From Pseudomonadota bacterium (GTDB taxonomy: Bacteria; Pseudomonadota; Alphaproteobacteria; Acetobacterales; Acetobacteraceae), in assembly GCA_021818425.1 (NCBI GenBank), contig JAKAEC010000016.1, positions 1 to 36,526 on the forward strand: 36,526 bases of DNA, in the 5' to 3' direction. The notes below the pieces were generated by a model that was given only the letters and a program-made list of their open reading frames with translations, had not been told where the DNA came from and did not search any database. Below, one piece after another: positions 11,858-18,696 of the stretch; positions within the stretch are counted from its first letter, which is position 1, and each line of letters starts with the position of its first letter. Made by a program: the position numbers and the translations under genes.

Positions 11858-11880
11858 AAATGGCGGCGAATGTTGGCTGC

Positions 11881-12180
11881 ATGAGTGATGCCATTGATTT
11901 GCCCCCTGTATTGGACCTAGTTGCCGCGCCCGGATTGCTGGAAAGCTTTGTTCAGCGGCGAGGTGACCGGCTATGCATAGACGCCAGCCGCGTGCAGCGG
12001 CTGGGTGCGCAATGCCTGCAGATATTGCTGGCGGCCCGCAATGCCTGGGCCGAAGATGGCAACGCGCTGGACATTCAGAATCCATCCGAGGATTTCACTG
12101 CTTCATTGGAGCTGTTGGGCACTTCGGTCGGCGGGTTAACAAATGGTACCCAAAAGGCGAGCGGAGAAACCGATAGATGA
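11881..12180 (+). CDS. STAS-domain protein at the head of the che operon (CheS-like position)
   Basis: The 99-residue product is a single STAS_2 domain: LDLVAAPGLLESF, LCIDASRVQRLGAQCLQILLAA, and NPSEDFTASLELLG. The DAS element (Ser36) is where anti-sigma antagonists are phosphorylated, so it could be a switch residue. Size and position, directly before cheY-cheA, equal those of Sinorhizobium meliloti cheS, whose product binds CheA and speeds loss of CheY1 phosphate. I infer analogy from context, not from alignment. The start is uncertain: ATG 11881 is preferred, ATG 11860 is also in frame, and neither has a strong Shine-Dalgarno sequence. Its stop overlaps the cheY ATG (ATGA). Confidence 0.72.
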   Translation: MSDAIDLPPVLDLVAAPGLLESFVQRRGDRLCIDASRVQRLGAQCLQILLAARNAWAEDGNALDIQNPSEDFTASLELLGTSVGGLTNGTQKASGETDR

Positions 12181-12542
12181 ATGTAACCGTTCTTACAGTT
12201 GATGATTCTCGGGCCATGCGCGACATGCTGCGCCATTCCCTTGTTGCTGCAGGGTTCAGGGTTATCCAGGCCGAAGACGGACTGCACGGGCTTGAGGTGC
12301 TTGCCTCGGAAAGTCCTGATGTCATCGTCACTGACATCAATATGCCCCGGATGGATGGGTTTGGCTTCATTCAGGCCGTGCGTAGCGACGCCGCGCGTCG
12401 AGCCACGCCTGTTTTAGTTTTGACGACGGAAGTTGATGTTGAAAAGAAGAATCGCGCGCGGGAGGCGGGCGCGACGGGCTGGATCGTAAAACCTTTCGAT
12501 CCCGAAAAGCTGGTGGACGCGATCCGCCGTGTTGCTGCTTGA
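12177..12542 (+). CDS. cheY: single-domain chemotaxis response regulator CheY
   Basis: A 121-residue stand-alone receiver domain. The acidic pair D9-D10 (LTVDDSRAM), phospho-acceptor D53 (VTDINMPRMDG), the switch Thr83 (VLTTE) and K105 (WIVKPFDPE) are all present. In chemotaxis the phosphorylated form binds the flagellar switch. It overlaps the STAS gene by four bases and is followed 17 bases later by cheA. It is the only stand-alone CheY in this cluster; S. meliloti and relatives have two, one acting as phosphate sink. That leaves signal termination to other factors here, see the cheT-like gene. Confidence 0.96.
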   Translation: MNVTVLTVDDSRAMRDMLRHSLVAAGFRVIQAEDGLHGLEVLASESPDVIVTDINMPRMDGFGFIQAVRSDAARRATPVLVLTTEVDVEKKNRAREAGATGWIVKPFDPEKLVDAIRRVAA

Positions 12543-12559
12543 ACGCAGAGGAGAGGATT

Positions 12560-14761
12560 ATGGAAGATCCATTAGCCGCGATAAAGGTCACATTCTTTCA
12601 AGAATGTGAGGAGCAGCTTGCTGAGCTGGAGAGCGGGCTGCTTGCTATGGAGAGCAATGTCGCCGACAGCGAAACGGTTAATGCGGTTTTTCGGGCCGTG
12701 CATTCCATGAAGGGTGGAGCGGGCATCTTTGCTATGGATGCCTTGGTCCGCTTTGCCCATATTTTTGAAACTTCACTGGATAAGGTGCGCTCAGGCGTTT
12801 TATCGGCTACGCCGCCAGTGGTTGCAGTGTTTCTACGCGCGGCCGATCTGCTGGCCGACCTTGTTCGCGCCGCCCGCGAGGATAGTGCAGTTGACGAGGC
12901 GCGCATTGCAGCGCTTGGTGTCGAGTTCGAGCGGATCGATCATCTTGATGGCGCGCCAGAGGCAGCTCACGTGGTACCAGCGAGTGAATGCTCGGCGGGT
13001 GATGGGGGTGGCCAGTCAGGCGGTGTGAGTACGTGGAATATCGTATTCACGCCCGACCAAGCCTTGTACGCCAAAGCAAATGAAACGGCGCTATTGTTGC
13101 GAGAGCTCCACCGCTTGGGTGAGGTCGAGGTCGAACTTGATGAAAGCGGCCTGCCAGAATTGCAGGACATGGATCCAGAGGGGGCATATCTTACATGGCG
13201 CGTCACGCTGAGAGGCGAATGCGGCGAGGAAGACATCCGAGATGTCTTTGAGTTTGTGCAGGAAGATTGTCATCTCGAAATATCTAAGGCCGAGCCTTAT
13301 GGTTTCGATCCGGGTACTGTGATCACTGGAGATAACGGGTTTAAGTTTGAGTTCTTTGCGCCGATTGTTGAGGAGCCCGAAGAGGAAGATCGAAAGGCGG
13401 AGGTCAAGTCAGAGGCTAATGTCCAGGCTGCGGTGGAGAGGCCGGATCCAGCCGCCCCCGCTGCGGCGGGAGCGCCGCCGCCGCAAAGCAAGACCGTGCA
13501 GGCCATAGCGGCCAAGACTGAGGCTGCGAGTTCTGTAGGGGCAACGATTCGCGTCGATTTGGACCGCGTAGACCGGATGATCGATTTAGTCGGTGAATTG
13601 GTCATCAATGAAGCGATGCTGAGCCAGCGAGTTTTGGAGGCGGGCATTGCACGGTCCTCTGGTGTGGCGATGGCGTTGGAGGAACTGGAAAACCTGACGC
13701 GGGAAATTCAGGACAGCGTGATGGCCATTCGCGCTCAGCCTGTGCGTTCTGTATTTCAGCGCATGCCAAGGCTGGTTCGTGAGGTTGCGGCCATGACTGG
13801 AAAGCAGGTCCGGCTAGTGACGGAAGGTGAGGCAACGGAGGTTGATAAGACCGTTATAGAACGCATTGCGGACCCGTTGACGCACATGATCCGCAATGCA
13901 ATTGACCACGGTTTAGAATCGACCGATCGGCGCATTGCAGAAGGAAAGCCTGCGGAGGGTACGGTCAGGTTGACGGCTTTGCATCGCTCCGGACGAATTG
14001 TTCTAGAAGTCTCCGACGACGGGGGCGGTATCAATCGTCCGCGGGTCCGACAAAAGGCGATCGAGAGAGGCTTGATCTCACCAGATGCGCAGCTCACGGA
14101 TGAAGAGGTTGACAACCTTATTTTCCTTCCGGGATTTTCGACGGCAGAACAACTTTCTGACATCTCGGGCCGCGGTGTTGGTATGGATGTGGTACGGCAA
14201 TCTATTCAGGCGCTCGGCGGACGAATTTCGATTTCATCTAGACCTGGGAAGGGTTCAACTTTTAGCTTGTCTTTGCCATTAACCCTCGCCGTTTTGGACG
14301 GCATGGTTGTTTCGGTTCAAGGCCATACCCTTATCATTCCGCTTGGCGTGATTGTTGAAACGCTCAAGCCGCGGCGAGAAGATGTGTTCCCATTGGATGG
14401 TGATCTGAACGTGTTGAAGTTACGAGGCGGCTATGTGCCCATCGTGGACGTTGCCCTTTGCCTTGGTTATGGCGCGCAGCATTCCGATCCGGCACAGAGT
14501 GTGGCACTCCTGGTGGAAGGAGAAGGAGGCGCTCGGGCAGTGCTACTCGTGGATGCGATCCATGGTCAGAAGCAGGTTGTTATCAAGAGTCTTGAGGCAA
14601 ATTACCGGGCGGTACGCGGCATTGCCGCGGCAACCGTGATGGGTGATGGCCGTGTGGCACTGATTCTCGACGTAGACGCAATGGTACAAAACACTGCAAC
14701 AGATGCCCGCCGTGACCTCGCTGAGTCAAGGCAGCTTGAAGCCAGTGCAGGTGAAAGATGA
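12560..14761 (+). CDS. cheA: chemotaxis histidine kinase CheA
   Basis: CheA phosphorylates itself on its HPt domain in response to receptors and passes the phosphate to CheY and CheB. In the 733-residue product I see the HPt domain (1-110) with H48 in FRAVHSMKGGAGIF, a P2-like response-regulator-binding domain (about 155-245, starting WNIVFTPDQ), an Ala/Pro-rich linker, the dimerisation helices (about 330-395, RVDRMIDLVGELVINEAML), the ATPase domain with N box IRNAIDHGLES, G1 VSDDGGGI and G2 SGRGVGMDVV, and a CheW-like P5 domain (about 575-715). ATG 12560 follows GAGAGGA and is preferred over TTG 12539. The stop overlaps the cheW start. Confidence 0.98.
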   Translation: MEDPLAAIKVTFFQECEEQLAELESGLLAMESNVADSETVNAVFRAVHSMKGGAGIFAMDALVRFAHIFETSLDKVRSGVLSATPPVVAVFLRAADLLADLVRAAREDSAVDEARIAALGVEFERIDHLDGAPEAAHVVPASECSAGDGGGQSGGVSTWNIVFTPDQALYAKANETALLLRELHRLGEVEVELDESGLPELQDMDPEGAYLTWRVTLRGECGEEDIRDVFEFVQEDCHLEISKAEPYGFDPGTVITGDNGFKFEFFAPIVEEPEEEDRKAEVKSEANVQAAVERPDPAAPAAAGAPPPQSKTVQAIAAKTEAASSVGATIRVDLDRVDRMIDLVGELVINEAMLSQRVLEAGIARSSGVAMALEELENLTREIQDSVMAIRAQPVRSVFQRMPRLVREVAAMTGKQVRLVTEGEATEVDKTVIERIADPLTHMIRNAIDHGLESTDRRIAEGKPAEGTVRLTALHRSGRIVLEVSDDGGGINRPRVRQKAIERGLISPDAQLTDEEVDNLIFLPGFSTAEQLSDISGRGVGMDVVRQSIQALGGRISISSRPGKGSTFSLSLPLTLAVLDGMVVSVQGHTLIIPLGVIVETLKPRREDVFPLDGDLNVLKLRGGYVPIVDVALCLGYGAQHSDPAQSVALLVEGEGGARAVLLVDAIHGQKQVVIKSLEANYRAVRGIAAATVMGDGRVALILDVDAMVQNTATDARRDLAESRQLEASAGER

Positions 14762-15222
14762 TGGATAAGCCAGAGACGATGCCGGAAGAGCATGAACTGA
14801 TCGCATTTCGTGTTGGGCGCCAGGAATTCTGCATTAATGTGATGATGGTGAGGGAAATCCGTGGATGGACGGAGGCCACAACGCTTCCTAAAGCTCCACG
14901 ATACGTAAAGGGTGTTATCAATTTGCGTGGTTCGGTGTTGCCGATCATTGATCTGGCAGTGCGCCTTGGCATGCCAGGAAAAGCGCCAACTGAACGCAAT
15001 GTAATTATCGTTGTGCAGGTTCTTCAGCGCCAGGTTGGAATTTTGGTCGATGCCGTTTCTGATATTCTGATGGCGGACAAGAGCGCTATTCAGCCGTTAC
15101 CGGACGTTACATCAGATCATGCAAAGCGATTCCTGAAGGGCCTGCTTGCCATGGATGGGCGCATGGTTAGCTTGATAGAGCTAGACGGTATATTGCCGGA
15201 AGAAGATCTGGAGGCCGCGTAG
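14758..15222 (+). CDS. cheW: chemotaxis coupling protein CheW (copy 1)
   Basis: A 154-residue single CheW domain that links receptors to CheA. Signatures are LIAFRVGRQEFCINVMMVREIRG, the loop PRYVKGVINLRGSVLPIIDL, and VGILVDAVSDI, ending with a SLIELDGIL strand. ATG 14758 overlaps the cheA stop; a second ATG at 14761 immediately follows. It is coupled tightly to cheA and cheR. A second, clearly related CheW lies at 18208 (both share REIRGW and KG-x-INLRGSV), so the array may be built from two CheW types. Base composition here is noticeably more AT-rich than in the flanking housekeeping genes. Confidence 0.97.
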   Translation: MMDKPETMPEEHELIAFRVGRQEFCINVMMVREIRGWTEATTLPKAPRYVKGVINLRGSVLPIIDLAVRLGMPGKAPTERNVIIVVQVLQRQVGILVDAVSDILMADKSAIQPLPDVTSDHAKRFLKGLLAMDGRMVSLIELDGILPEEDLEAA

Positions 15223-15223
15223 A

Positions 15224-16117
15224 ATGGCCGATTCGACGGTGGAATCGAGGCCGGTGTCTAGGCTCGTCGAGAATTCAGAATTTGTTTTTACGTCGAAAGA
15301 CATGTCAAAAATTTCTGAAATCATGATGAGCGAGGCAGGGATTGTTTTGCCTGAATCTAAGGCCAGCCTTGTCTATTCTCGTTTGGTCAAGCGGCTTCGT
15401 CATCTAAAGCTCTTTAGCTTTTCTGAATATTGCGAACTCGTCGAGGGGGCAAATGGTAAGGCAGAGAGACAGGAACTGATAGCAGCACTTACCACCAATG
15501 TAACAAGATTCTTCCGTGAGCCGCATCACTTTGAGCATTTGCGGACGAAGGTCCTTCCGGATCTTATCCATCGCGCCAAGGCGGGACAAAAGATTCGAAT
15601 GTGGTCTGCAGCATGCTCGTTCGGTCCGGAGCCATACTCCATGGCCCTAACGCTGTTGCAGGAACTGCCAGATGCCGGACAATACGATATTCGTATCCTT
15701 GCAACGGATATTGATCCTAACGTTCTTGCAACTGCATCGGAAGGAGTTTTTGATGAGGCGCAGCTTGCGCCGGTGCCGGAAGCGCTGCGACGGAAATGGT
15801 TTAAGCCATTAGGCGACGCTTCGAAGAAATGGCAGGCGAAACGTGAGCTTCAGCAGTTCATCTCTTTCCGTCAGCTTAACCTCATTGGCAACTGGCCCAT
15901 GACAGGAAAATTTCAGGTCATTTTCTGCCGTAATGTTGTTATCTACTTTGATAATACAACACAGGAGAAGATCTGGTCTCGCTTTGTGCCCCTCATGGAC
16001 AAGGATAGCGTGCTTTATATTGGTCACTCGGAACGGATATCCGGCATAGCGGACCGGTCTTTAAAGAGCGATGGTATAACAATCTACCGTAATGTGACTG
16101 GAAAGATGTCCGGATGA
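15224..16117 (+). CDS. cheR: chemoreceptor glutamate methyltransferase CheR
   Basis: CheR transfers methyl groups from S-adenosylmethionine to receptor glutamates for adaptation. The 297-residue product has the N-terminal helical domain (about 25-90, with the [12 protein letters not shown] segment at its end) and the Rossmann domain: [33 protein letters not shown], the FRQLNL segment, and [16 protein letters not shown]. The first SAM-binding loop usually reads CSTGEEPYS or CSxGQEPYS; here it is CSFGPEPYS, a Pro in the variable place. The essential Glu and the EPYS are kept, so activity is expected. No C-terminal NWETF-type tether reading is relevant to CheR. It overlaps cheB by four bases. 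Confidence 0.97.
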
Positions 16118-17148
16118 AAACGCGTGTAATCATTGTGGATGACTCCGCAACTATGAGATCCGTTATTGCCGCGCATCTGCAGGCTGACCCGGATGTTGAA
16201 GTTGTTGGGCAGGCGGCTGACCCGCATGAGGCAAGGCAACTTATCAAGGAGTTGGTGCCTGATGTCATCACTCTTGACATCGAGATGCCTAACATGAACG
16301 GCATTGAGTTCCTCGAGAAAATTATGCGGCTGCGGCCAACACCTGTGATTATGGTTTCCACGTTAACACAGGCGGGTGCGGAGATAAGCCTGCGTGCTTT
16401 GGAGATTGGCGCCTTTGACTGTGTTGCTAAGCCATCTTCCATTGCACCGGAGAGTTTCAGCACTCTCGCAGAAAAGGTAAAGGCCGCGGCGCAATATGGC
16501 TGCAAACCCAGAGCCATAAGACCGCCAGCCCGCTTTATGTCCATTGCCAACTACGAACCAGATGGGCGCCTAGTTGCCATAGGATCGTCAACCGGGGGCG
16601 TAGAAGCTTTAATAGCGATTCTGTCAAAGTTTCCGGCCAACTGCCCGCCGGTTGTTGTCAGCCAGCACATGCCGGCAACGTTCACTAAGAGCTTCTCTGC
16701 TAGGCTGAATAAACTGTGCCAGCCCACGGTGAGTGAGGCCGAGGATGGGCAGAAGCTTGAGTTGGGGCATATCTACATTGCCCCCGGTGATTGTCATCTT
16801 GAGATTTCGGGGCGAGGGTACCATAAAATTAGACTGACACATGGCGAGAAGGTGAACGGGCATAGACCATCCGTCGATGTTATGTTGAAGTCGGTTGCCA
16901 ATAGTTACGGCAAGGATGCCATTGGCGTTATTCTGACAGGTATTGGTTGTGATGGCGCCGAAGGCTTACTCGCGATGCGTTCGGCTGGCGCCGAAACGAT
17001 AGGGCAGGATGCCGCTAGCAGCGTGGTTTATGGTATGCCGCGTGCCGCGTTTGAGCTGGGCGCCGTTGAGCGGCAGCTGCCACTTGAGAAGATTGCCGCT
17101 CAAATTTTAGCGACGACATCAGTGCGGCAGAAGGTAATGGCAACATGA
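16114..17148 (+). CDS. cheB: chemotaxis response regulator and protein-glutamate methylesterase CheB
   Basis: CheB removes receptor methyl groups and deamidates receptor glutamines; phosphorylation of its receiver activates it. The 344-residue product has a receiver domain (1-125) with D9-D10, phospho-acceptor D55 ([10 protein letters not shown]) and K107 (VAKPS), a short linker, and the esterase domain with the triad S159 ([11 protein letters not shown]), H185 (SQHMPATF) and D280 ([10 protein letters not shown]). All active residues are in place. The GIGCDG form differs from the more common GMGxDG by one conservative change. It overlaps cheR and cheD by four bases each, so the unit is translated as a chain. 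Confidence 0.98.
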
Positions 17149-17720
17149 TTATGCCCGTAACACTGCGTGAAGTGGACGGAGAGCGGCGAGTGAACATCGT
17201 GCAGGGTCAGCACCATGTCGATAATGATCCGCTGACGGTTTTGACGACGATTTTGGGTTCATGCATTGCCGCTTGCATATGGGACGCCGAGGCAGGCATT
17301 GGGGGAATGAACCATTTTCTTCTGCCTGGCGCAAACCAGGCAAATGGCCAAGTGCAAAAGGGTGAGGCACAGAGATATGGCGTTCACCTCATGGAGTTAT
17401 TGATTAATGATTTACTGCGGCGTGGCGTAAAAAAATCTAGATTGAAGGCCAAGCTTTTCGGTGGTGCCTGCATGATTAAGGGGCTGACGGATATAGGCGC
17501 ATCGAATGCCGATTTTGCCGAAAAGTTCCTGAGAGATGAGGGGATTGAACTGCTTGGCGGAAGTTTGCGTGGTAATCTTGGCCGGCGGGTTCAGTTTTGG
17601 CCAGTAACGGGGCGGGCTCGCCAAGCCTTTTTAGCCAAGGAGACAGATTCGATCCTGCGTGAAGAACTTGTGCGTCGTCCTGTGGTTCCGTCCGGTGCGG
17701 GTTCCGTTGAGCTGTTTTAA
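17145..17720 (+). CDS. cheD: chemoreceptor glutamine deamidase CheD
   Basis: CheD converts certain receptor glutamines to glutamate and modulates adaptation. In the 191-residue product the catalytic Cys40 ([12 protein letters not shown]) and His57 ([10 protein letters not shown]) are 17 residues apart, the same spacing as Cys27 and His44 of Thermotoga maritima CheD. Further family motifs are [17 protein letters not shown] and [13 protein letters not shown]. The C-terminus is SVELF, close to the DLELF that ends the next gene product. The gene overlaps cheB by four bases, and its stop shares a base with the next ATG (TAATG). Confidence 0.97.
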
Positions 17721-18127
17721 TGAAAGGGTATCATGAGATGGAAAGAACCAGCGCTGTGGCTGAGCCGGTTGGTGATAGTTCGCACCATACCCCGCTTCGC
17801 TCTATTCTTTCCGCGATCAGCGACGAGTTCCGTGAGCTTGGCCGTTTTGCGGACCGCTTTCAGCTGACACTGAGCCCCGCCATTCACCGTATGGCTCTAG
17901 ATCAAGCTTGCCACCGGGACATTCAGTCGTTGGATCTTTTGTCGCAGCGCTTGATCGCTCTTTCGAGTTATATATTGGAAATCGTTGAGATTTTACCAGA
18001 GGATTTGCGCCTTGATTCGCGGCAGGCGCTAGCGTCCATTCCGCTTTCTGAGCTTCAATACCGGCTTAAGGGTGCCCCGGTTCCAGAAAATCCGGAGCAC
18101 GTATCAGGCGATCTTGAATTATTCTAA
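17720..18127 (+). CDS. CheT-like protein, candidate CheZ-type CheY-P phosphatase
   Basis: A 135-residue all-helical protein after cheD. It contains DLLSQ at residues 72-76 within a predicted helix (CHRDIQSLDLLSQRLIAL). DxxxQ is the catalytic motif of CheZ, where the Asp and Gln dephosphorylate CheY. Size and position match CheT of S. meliloti (the gene after cheD), a distant CheZ relative reported to speed CheY1-P dephosphorylation and to bind CheR. The C-terminus is acidic and ends DLELF, like CheD's SVELF. The start may instead be ATG 17738, which has AAAGGG (17723-17728) upstream. No zinc, nucleotide or membrane motif is visible. The phosphatase role is inferred from motif plus context. 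Confidence 0.68.
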   Translation: MKGYHEMERTSAVAEPVGDSSHHTPLRSILSAISDEFRELGRFADRFQLTLSPAIHRMALDQACHRDIQSLDLLSQRLIALSSYILEIVEILPEDLRLDSRQALASIPLSELQYRLKGAPVPENPEHVSGDLELF

Positions 18128-18207: not shown

Positions 18208-18696
18208 ATGAACCGGTATGCCGAGCATAAAGGTAACGATCATCGCTCGGAGTTCCTTTCGGTGAGGCTGGGCGAGCAGGAGTTTGCAATTGATATAAAG
18301 TCCATCCGTGAAATTCGCGGTTGGATCGCATCGACGAATCTGCCCTTCGCGCCAGCGTTTATCAAAGGCATGATCAACCTGCGCGGAAGCGTATTGGTTG
18401 TGGTTGATCTTGCGCAACGCCTGGGCTTTGCTGCTACGAAGTTAGACGCCGCTTCTGTCGTTGTGGTGGTGGAATGCGGCGACCGCACGGTAGGGCTGTT
18501 GGTTGATGCTGTGTGCGACATCATTACCGTCACAGATGAGATGCGCCAAAACACGCCTGAAACCGGGAGCGATATGCCAAAATCTTTCATTGAAGGGTTG
18601 GTGATGATGGACAATCGGATCATCAGCATTCTCTCTCTTCCAGTGCTCGTGCCCGACGAAAATGTCCAGCGAATGGCGGAGTTAGCGGCAGCCTGA
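18208..18696 (+). CDS. cheW: chemotaxis coupling protein CheW (copy 2)
   Basis: A second 162-residue CheW domain: EFLSVRLGEQEFAIDIKSIREIRGW, APAFIKGMINLRGSVLVVVDLAQRLG, and VGLLVDAVCDIITV. It is a paralogue of the CheW at 14758, with the same REIRGW and NLRGSV elements but different N- and C-terminal ends. Unlike the other che genes it does not overlap its neighbour; 80 bases precede it, and GGAG stands in a good position before the ATG, so it may have its own promoter. It closes the che cluster. The following 126 bases to cobA hold no convincing terminator. Confidence 0.96.
   Translation: MNRYAEHKGNDHRSEFLSVRLGEQEFAIDIKSIREIRGWIASTNLPFAPAFIKGMINLRGSVLVVVDLAQRLGFAATKLDAASVVVVVECGDRTVGLLVDAVCDIITVTDEMRQNTPETGSDMPKSFIEGLVMMDNRIISILSLPVLVPDENVQRMAELAAA

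Follow-up and report, generated by a model that had tools for sequence, protein, structure and literature searches.

A CheT-family protein encoded after cheD in an Acetobacteraceae chemotaxis operon: a probable CheY1-P phosphatase

The small gene that follows cheD in the chemotaxis operon of a member of the Acetobacteraceae encodes a protein of the wider CheT family, and three of its residues (Gln69, Asp72, and Gln76) have been retained without exception in 47 aligned relatives. The protein is probably (at a probability of about 0.7) a small helical auxiliary phosphatase that acts on the phosphorylated form of CheY1, the CheY encoded at position 12177, and that does the job of CheZ in this lineage. 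The window, by which we mean the whole stretch of DNA analysed (36,526 nucleotides, contig JAKAEC010000016.1), belongs to a draft genome of 2.1 Mb that is 86% complete, and the features discussed are collected in Table 1.

Table 1. Features of the chemotaxis operon in the window, with the evidence for each.
Feature	Position	Strand	Evidence
STAS-domain gene, 5' of cheY1	11860..12180	+	Pfam STAS_2
CheY1 orthologue, proposed substrate	12177..12542	+	28-row CheY1 clade including two rhizobial CheY1, support 98/90
cheA	12539..14761	+	
cheW	14758..15222	+	
cheR	15224..16117	+	also aligned to solved CheR
cheB	16114..17148	+	
cheD, ending GSVELF (tail of the same kind as that of the CheT-like protein)	17145..17720	+	Pfam CheD 1.8e-24
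CheT-family gene, 135 aa (129 aa if the start is 17738)	17720..18127	+	ORF; relatives; rhizobial CheT homology
Codons Q69 to Q76 (QxxDxxxQ), invariant Q69, D72, and Q76	17924..17947	+	sole invariant columns of alignment A3, 47/47
C-terminal tail SGDLELF of the CheT-like protein	18104..18124	+	psi-[ED]-[LFA]-F ends 31/47 CheT
Second cheW	18208..18696	+	

According to Pfam, the operon runs STAS, CheY, CheA, CheW, CheR, CheB, CheD, the CheT-like gene, and CheW, which matches the neighbours listed by the sequence-only reading; that reading had also placed a CheT-like frame with DLLSQ at residues 72–76 directly after cheD, and the coordinates, length, and motif that it gave are all borne out. The stop codon of cheD and the ATG of the frame share one base; an alternative start at Met7 (17738), with AAAGGG 9 nt upstream, is equally plausible and would make the motif residues 66–70. 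The protein hits nothing in Pfam at E-values up to 1, and its score with the curated NCBIfam equivalog for CheT (NF047973), 15.7 bits (E = 0.011), falls short of the cut-off of 200 bits; the match is weak but in register, aligning residues 29–119 with model positions 19–110. As Pfam is silent and this score lies far under the cut-off, automatic annotation would name the protein "hypothetical", as had been anticipated. At the other end of the operon, a BLAST relative of the STAS-domain gene occupies the same slot in Sinorhizobium and Shinella, which in Sinorhizobium we take to be the position of cheS, and the window gene may be a CheS relative.

Relatives of the protein were sought with searches of different breadth: the single sequence found matches in 6 of 100 genomes of the family (its own included), a 10-row profile detected CheT-like genes in 60 of 397 family genomes, and a 47-row profile, applied to the class, matched 11 of 385 genomes, again including its own, with two of these matches read as false; at most 11 candidates per genome were scored with the 10-row profile. 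The alignment comprises 47 rows, namely the window protein, 36 family loci, four class loci, and six named loci from plasmid records (Sinorhizobium sp. K101, Shinella, Sphingobium sp. V4, Acetobacter persici, Tritonibacter, and Phaeobacter), so that, counting the window, loci were read from 37 of the 60 family genomes in which a CheT-like gene was matched. Several candidates were discarded: the sole locus from the single-protein scan of genome contigs (L007) is a chance match within a gene of another kind, and L013, which lies beside or inside an isocitrate dehydrogenase-like gene, as well as L145 and L146, which lie within a chemoreceptor and a histidine kinase, were excluded before the motif counts.

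The CheT-like gene is found directly 3' of cheD at 40 of the 47 loci and directly 3' of a CheY gene at the other seven. It stands after cheR-cheY rather than after cheD at L057, L058, L065, L067, L142, and L144, which comprise Tritonibacter, Phaeobacter, and four loci of one family. Among eight named plasmid regions taken at cheD matches, two (Rhizobium leguminosarum pRlX5 and Azospirillum brasilense) have no CheT-like gene after cheD, and cheD by itself is therefore no predictor of CheT.

The connection to rhizobial CheT is made by profile: a 45-row profile lacking the two rhizobial rows (Sinorhizobium and Shinella) scores these at 52.3 and 47.3 bits, compared with 7.0 bits for the best of 200 shuffled controls, and the Sinorhizobium protein is CheT according to the NCBI model (228 bits, above the cut-off). 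Two relatives from another genus of the window's family match that model over most of their length (1.2e-9 and 4.1e-9), the Tritonibacter relative reaches only 0.0075, and the Acetobacter persici relative gives no match at E-values up to 1. On this sequence evidence, the window protein belongs to CheT in the wider sense, though not to the curated equivalog, and is a homologue of rhizobial CheT (Sinorhizobium/Agrobacterium, NF047973), with which it shares QxxDxxxQ in register, a gene position after cheD, a tail of like type (AAGDFEAF in the rhizobial protein), and a CheY1 of the same clade encoded 5' of cheA; it differs in its low identity to the two rhizobial rows (18–21%), in its score far under the NCBI cut-off, and in an operon without a second CheY. 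The homology establishes the CheT-like identity proposed by the sequence-only reading. The occurrence of such a protein outside the rhizobia is likewise confirmed, but not as news, since it is already known: Caulobacter crescentus is listed among the holders of CheT homologues in a review (PMC12654446). A scan of 190 class genomes with NF047973 gave no match, but its controls were equally silent, making it uninformative, and the weak matches of this model in Caulobacter at E-values up to 1 may be noise, as it also matches in Methanosarcina. At one locus of the window's family (L063), the genes run cheB-cheY-cheD-CheT-like gene-response regulator-152 aa protein, an order that is presumably also that of Caulobacter, ending cheD-cheU-cheYIII-cheE; compared by position alone in this presumed order, CheU of Caulobacter crescentus corresponds to the CheT-like gene of L063. 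According to PMC10579534, Caulobacter cheD, cheU, and cheE have received hardly any description.

Among the 47 aligned relatives, whose identity to the window protein goes down to 15%, no column is invariant except Q69, D72, and Q76, and the same three alone stay invariant in the 40, 30, 20, and 12 representatives retained at identity thresholds of 80, 60, 40, and 30%, counts that are to be read with the knowledge that the search profiles include the motif and so favour sequences retaining it, possibly missing those that have lost it. QxxDxxxQ also occurs in four further relatives from the class. DxxxQ alone is weak evidence, since by a rough estimate between a quarter and a third of random proteins of 135 aa would contain one, and the motif is judged to be real because it is conserved across relatives. 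Coincidental occurrence of the motif in some unrelated small helical protein would agree with the helical, low-information sequence, with the frequency of DxxxQ, and with the silence of Pfam, but it is countered by the 47/47 invariance and by the homology to CheT, and is highly improbable.

On a helical wheel drawn from the column pattern of the alignment, Q69, D72, and Q76 fall within 60 degrees of one another on the polar side, and the opposite face (positions 71, 74, 78, 81, 85, and 88) is rich in Leu, Ile, and Val. A catalytic pair exposed on an amphipathic helix would be expected to be placed in this way. Loss of Asp72 or Gln76 among orthologues, or their burial, had been named as observations that would speak against a phosphatase; both residues are invariant, and the column pattern, which is not a structure, disfavours burial. 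A single-sequence structure model of low confidence (mean pLDDT 51) has its longest helices at residues 23–49 and 56–91, the motif lying inside the second. A profile search against solved structures returned 26 chains at E-values up to 10; designed coiled coils head the list (best 1.4e-4), other helical proteins follow, and CheZ is not among them.

In E. coli CheZ, Asp143 engages a conserved Lys and Gln147 positions the attacking water. Separated by one turn of the helix on its predicted exposed face, Asp72 and Gln76 would enter the active site of CheY1-P and act in the same manner, Asp72 reaching the conserved Lys and Gln76 placing the water. Gln69, on the same face, possibly helps to hold the CheY active site, and the CheZ proteins inspected have no Gln there. 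The proposal offers testable residues (Q69, D72, and Q76) and a predicted substrate (CheY1).

If it works as proposed, the protein acts like CheZ; the sequence comparisons give no convincing support for its being a CheZ. Pfam finds neither CheZ (PF04344) nor CheC in the window protein or in its own draft genome (86% complete), in which FliM is present, and the absence of both from the operon noted earlier can be extended to that draft. A profile comparison with 29 CheZ sequences, a check that the sequence-only reading had suggested, gave a probability of 0.9% and left the two motifs unpaired; its score of 17.7, against a maximum of 16.5 in 40 column shuffles, comes from a best stretch that pairs the C-terminal regions, and a sequence relationship to CheZ was not convincingly detected. 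At the level of structure, a review (PMC12654446) states that S. meliloti CheT, as modelled by AlphaFold, resembles E. coli CheZ. The window protein and CheZ have in common a DxxxQ within a helix, on what the column pattern suggests is an exposed face, and presumably the same reaction. They differ in that the window protein is shorter, in that Ser, Gly, or Ala, as opposed to the invariant Gln, stands three residues before the Asp in all of the family CheZ proteins whose motif was read (26 of 30), and in their tails, most of the family CheZ proteins inspected being of the DQSDIDKLLASF type, unlike SGDLELF. The CheC/CheX/FliY phosphatases do the same kind of job as that proposed for the window protein, and CheC also acts beside CheD; the window protein differs from them in having no Pfam match, and its own genome has no match to CheC.

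Across the 397 family genomes, CheZ is found in 209, CheT-like proteins in 60, and both in only one (Fisher p 9e-21), and by genus, CheT-like proteins occur in 13 and CheZ in 58 of 102, with two shared (p 0.002), an exclusion that common descent within genera, together with divergent CheT proteins overlooked by the profile search, may make look stronger than it is. The one genome that holds both (G006) speaks against a CheY1-P phosphatase. In the window's lineage, the CheT-type protein would fill the role that CheZ has in many relatives, and the data suggest that a phosphatase of the CheT type, should its activity be as proposed, is used far beyond the rhizobia, standing in for CheZ. For rhizobia that have no CheZ, PMC8429497 describes a sink CheY through which CheY-P is drained. 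In the literature searched, which did not include the original CheT paper, the near-exclusion of CheT and CheZ, the invariant Q69, and the common tail of CheT and CheD are not reported.

The CheY proteins of these operons form two groups, one encoded before cheA (CheY1) and one after cheB (CheY2); the branch dividing them has a support of 64/90, and in each of 200 bootstrap trees one change is enough to account for the labels; three rows labelled CheY1 there are in truth copies of a type linked to fliM. The window CheY clusters with the two rhizobial CheY1 proteins in the 28-row clade, and the rows of Acetobacter persici group with those of the window's family. CheY1 is present at all 45 loci whose contig extends to it, while CheY2 is missing from 14 of the 47 loci that keep CheT, namely all 12 read of the window's genus and two of one other (L098 was counted as having CheY2 despite a cut contig). 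CheT is retained where CheY2 is absent, presumably through loss of CheY2. S. meliloti CheT dephosphorylates just one of its two CheY proteins, as stated in the review PMC12654446.

The sequence-only reading held that there was no second stand-alone CheY, which is true of the operon but not of the genome, where at least one more, a CheY-like protein of 123 aa, is encoded about 4.6 kb from fliM (own genome contig C16, L101:2491-2862); five short response-regulator frames were retrieved from that genome, and all but those on C4 and C84 were read. In five relatives, proteins similar to this fliM-linked one are encoded close to the che operon. As CheY2 is missing from the operon and a CheY-like protein lies near fliM, the motor CheY may be encoded elsewhere, with the fliM-linked protein as a candidate. 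A phosphatase acting chiefly on a receiver other than CheY1, for example CheB or this CheY-like protein, would accommodate the further stand-alone CheY-like protein and the seven of 47 CheT genes that directly follow a CheY gene of the second type; it is improbable, as CheT persists without a second operon CheY and CheY1 accompanies it wherever the contig reaches, and as the fliM-linked protein forms a separate, long-branched clade on the CheY1 side of the tree. CheY1 is thus the preferred substrate, and, from the 2024 work of Agbekudzi, CheY1 is said to be the CheY on which S. meliloti CheT acts.

S. meliloti CheT reportedly speeds the decay of CheY1-P merely about two-fold, and its deletion and motif mutants reportedly differ; this small effect and the difference between mutants make a second role likely. 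The C-terminus may bear on such a role. In the window, CheD and the CheT-like protein end alike (SVELF, 17703-17717, and DLELF, 18110-18124), and the strict tail pattern given in Table 1 ends 32 of 43 CheD but none of 3440 other ORFs of the loci, a looser pattern ending 40 of 47 CheT, 36 of 43 CheD, and 36 of the 3440. Counted by eye, 17 of 21 chemoreceptors of these loci end in xWxxF. S. meliloti CheT forms a complex with CheR, according to the review PMC12654446. We tentatively consider, as a possibility that is rather doubtful, that CheT and CheD share a C-terminal tag for docking (psi-[E/D]-x-F), a mimic of the chemoreceptor xWxxF, with phosphatase, deamidase, and receptors all competing for the same site, on either CheR or CheB; the tail could alternatively serve in CheY docking. 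If the former is true, the common tag would tie signal termination to adaptation and account for the reported CheT–CheR complex.

The same tail counts and the same complex would also agree with an adaptor that binds CheR or the array, its tail anchoring it at the signalling array, where it would act mainly in adaptation, and its DxxxQ helix binding rather than catalysing. This is unlikely on several grounds: the tail is absent from L052, L057, L058, and L067, all of which retain QxxDxxxQ; the aromatic residue that marks receptor pentapeptides is missing from most tails, the published xZxxZ rule describing 8 of 47 CheT and 0 of 43 CheD; and the invariance of precisely Q, D, and Q is left unexplained. 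Less clearly, Arg197 of CheR is named as the contact of the receptor Trp in PMC5907407, and the window CheR has Gln at that position by alignment, its pentapeptide loop aligning without gaps to that of S. typhimurium CheR; the loop varies among loci. A phosphatase acting on CheY1-P remains the reading preferred here, with the tail that it shares with CheD as a feature that may explain CheT–CheR binding.

Two side observations concern FliM. Its usual start is LSQxEIDALL, and the FliM of the window's own genome seems to begin MLEIDPNSEVIDLLD (L135 near 1426), without that motif. At another locus (L006:1722-2336), the response regulator encoded after the CheT-like gene carries LSQSEIDAML near its end, which we take to be like the CheY-binding N-terminus of FliM.
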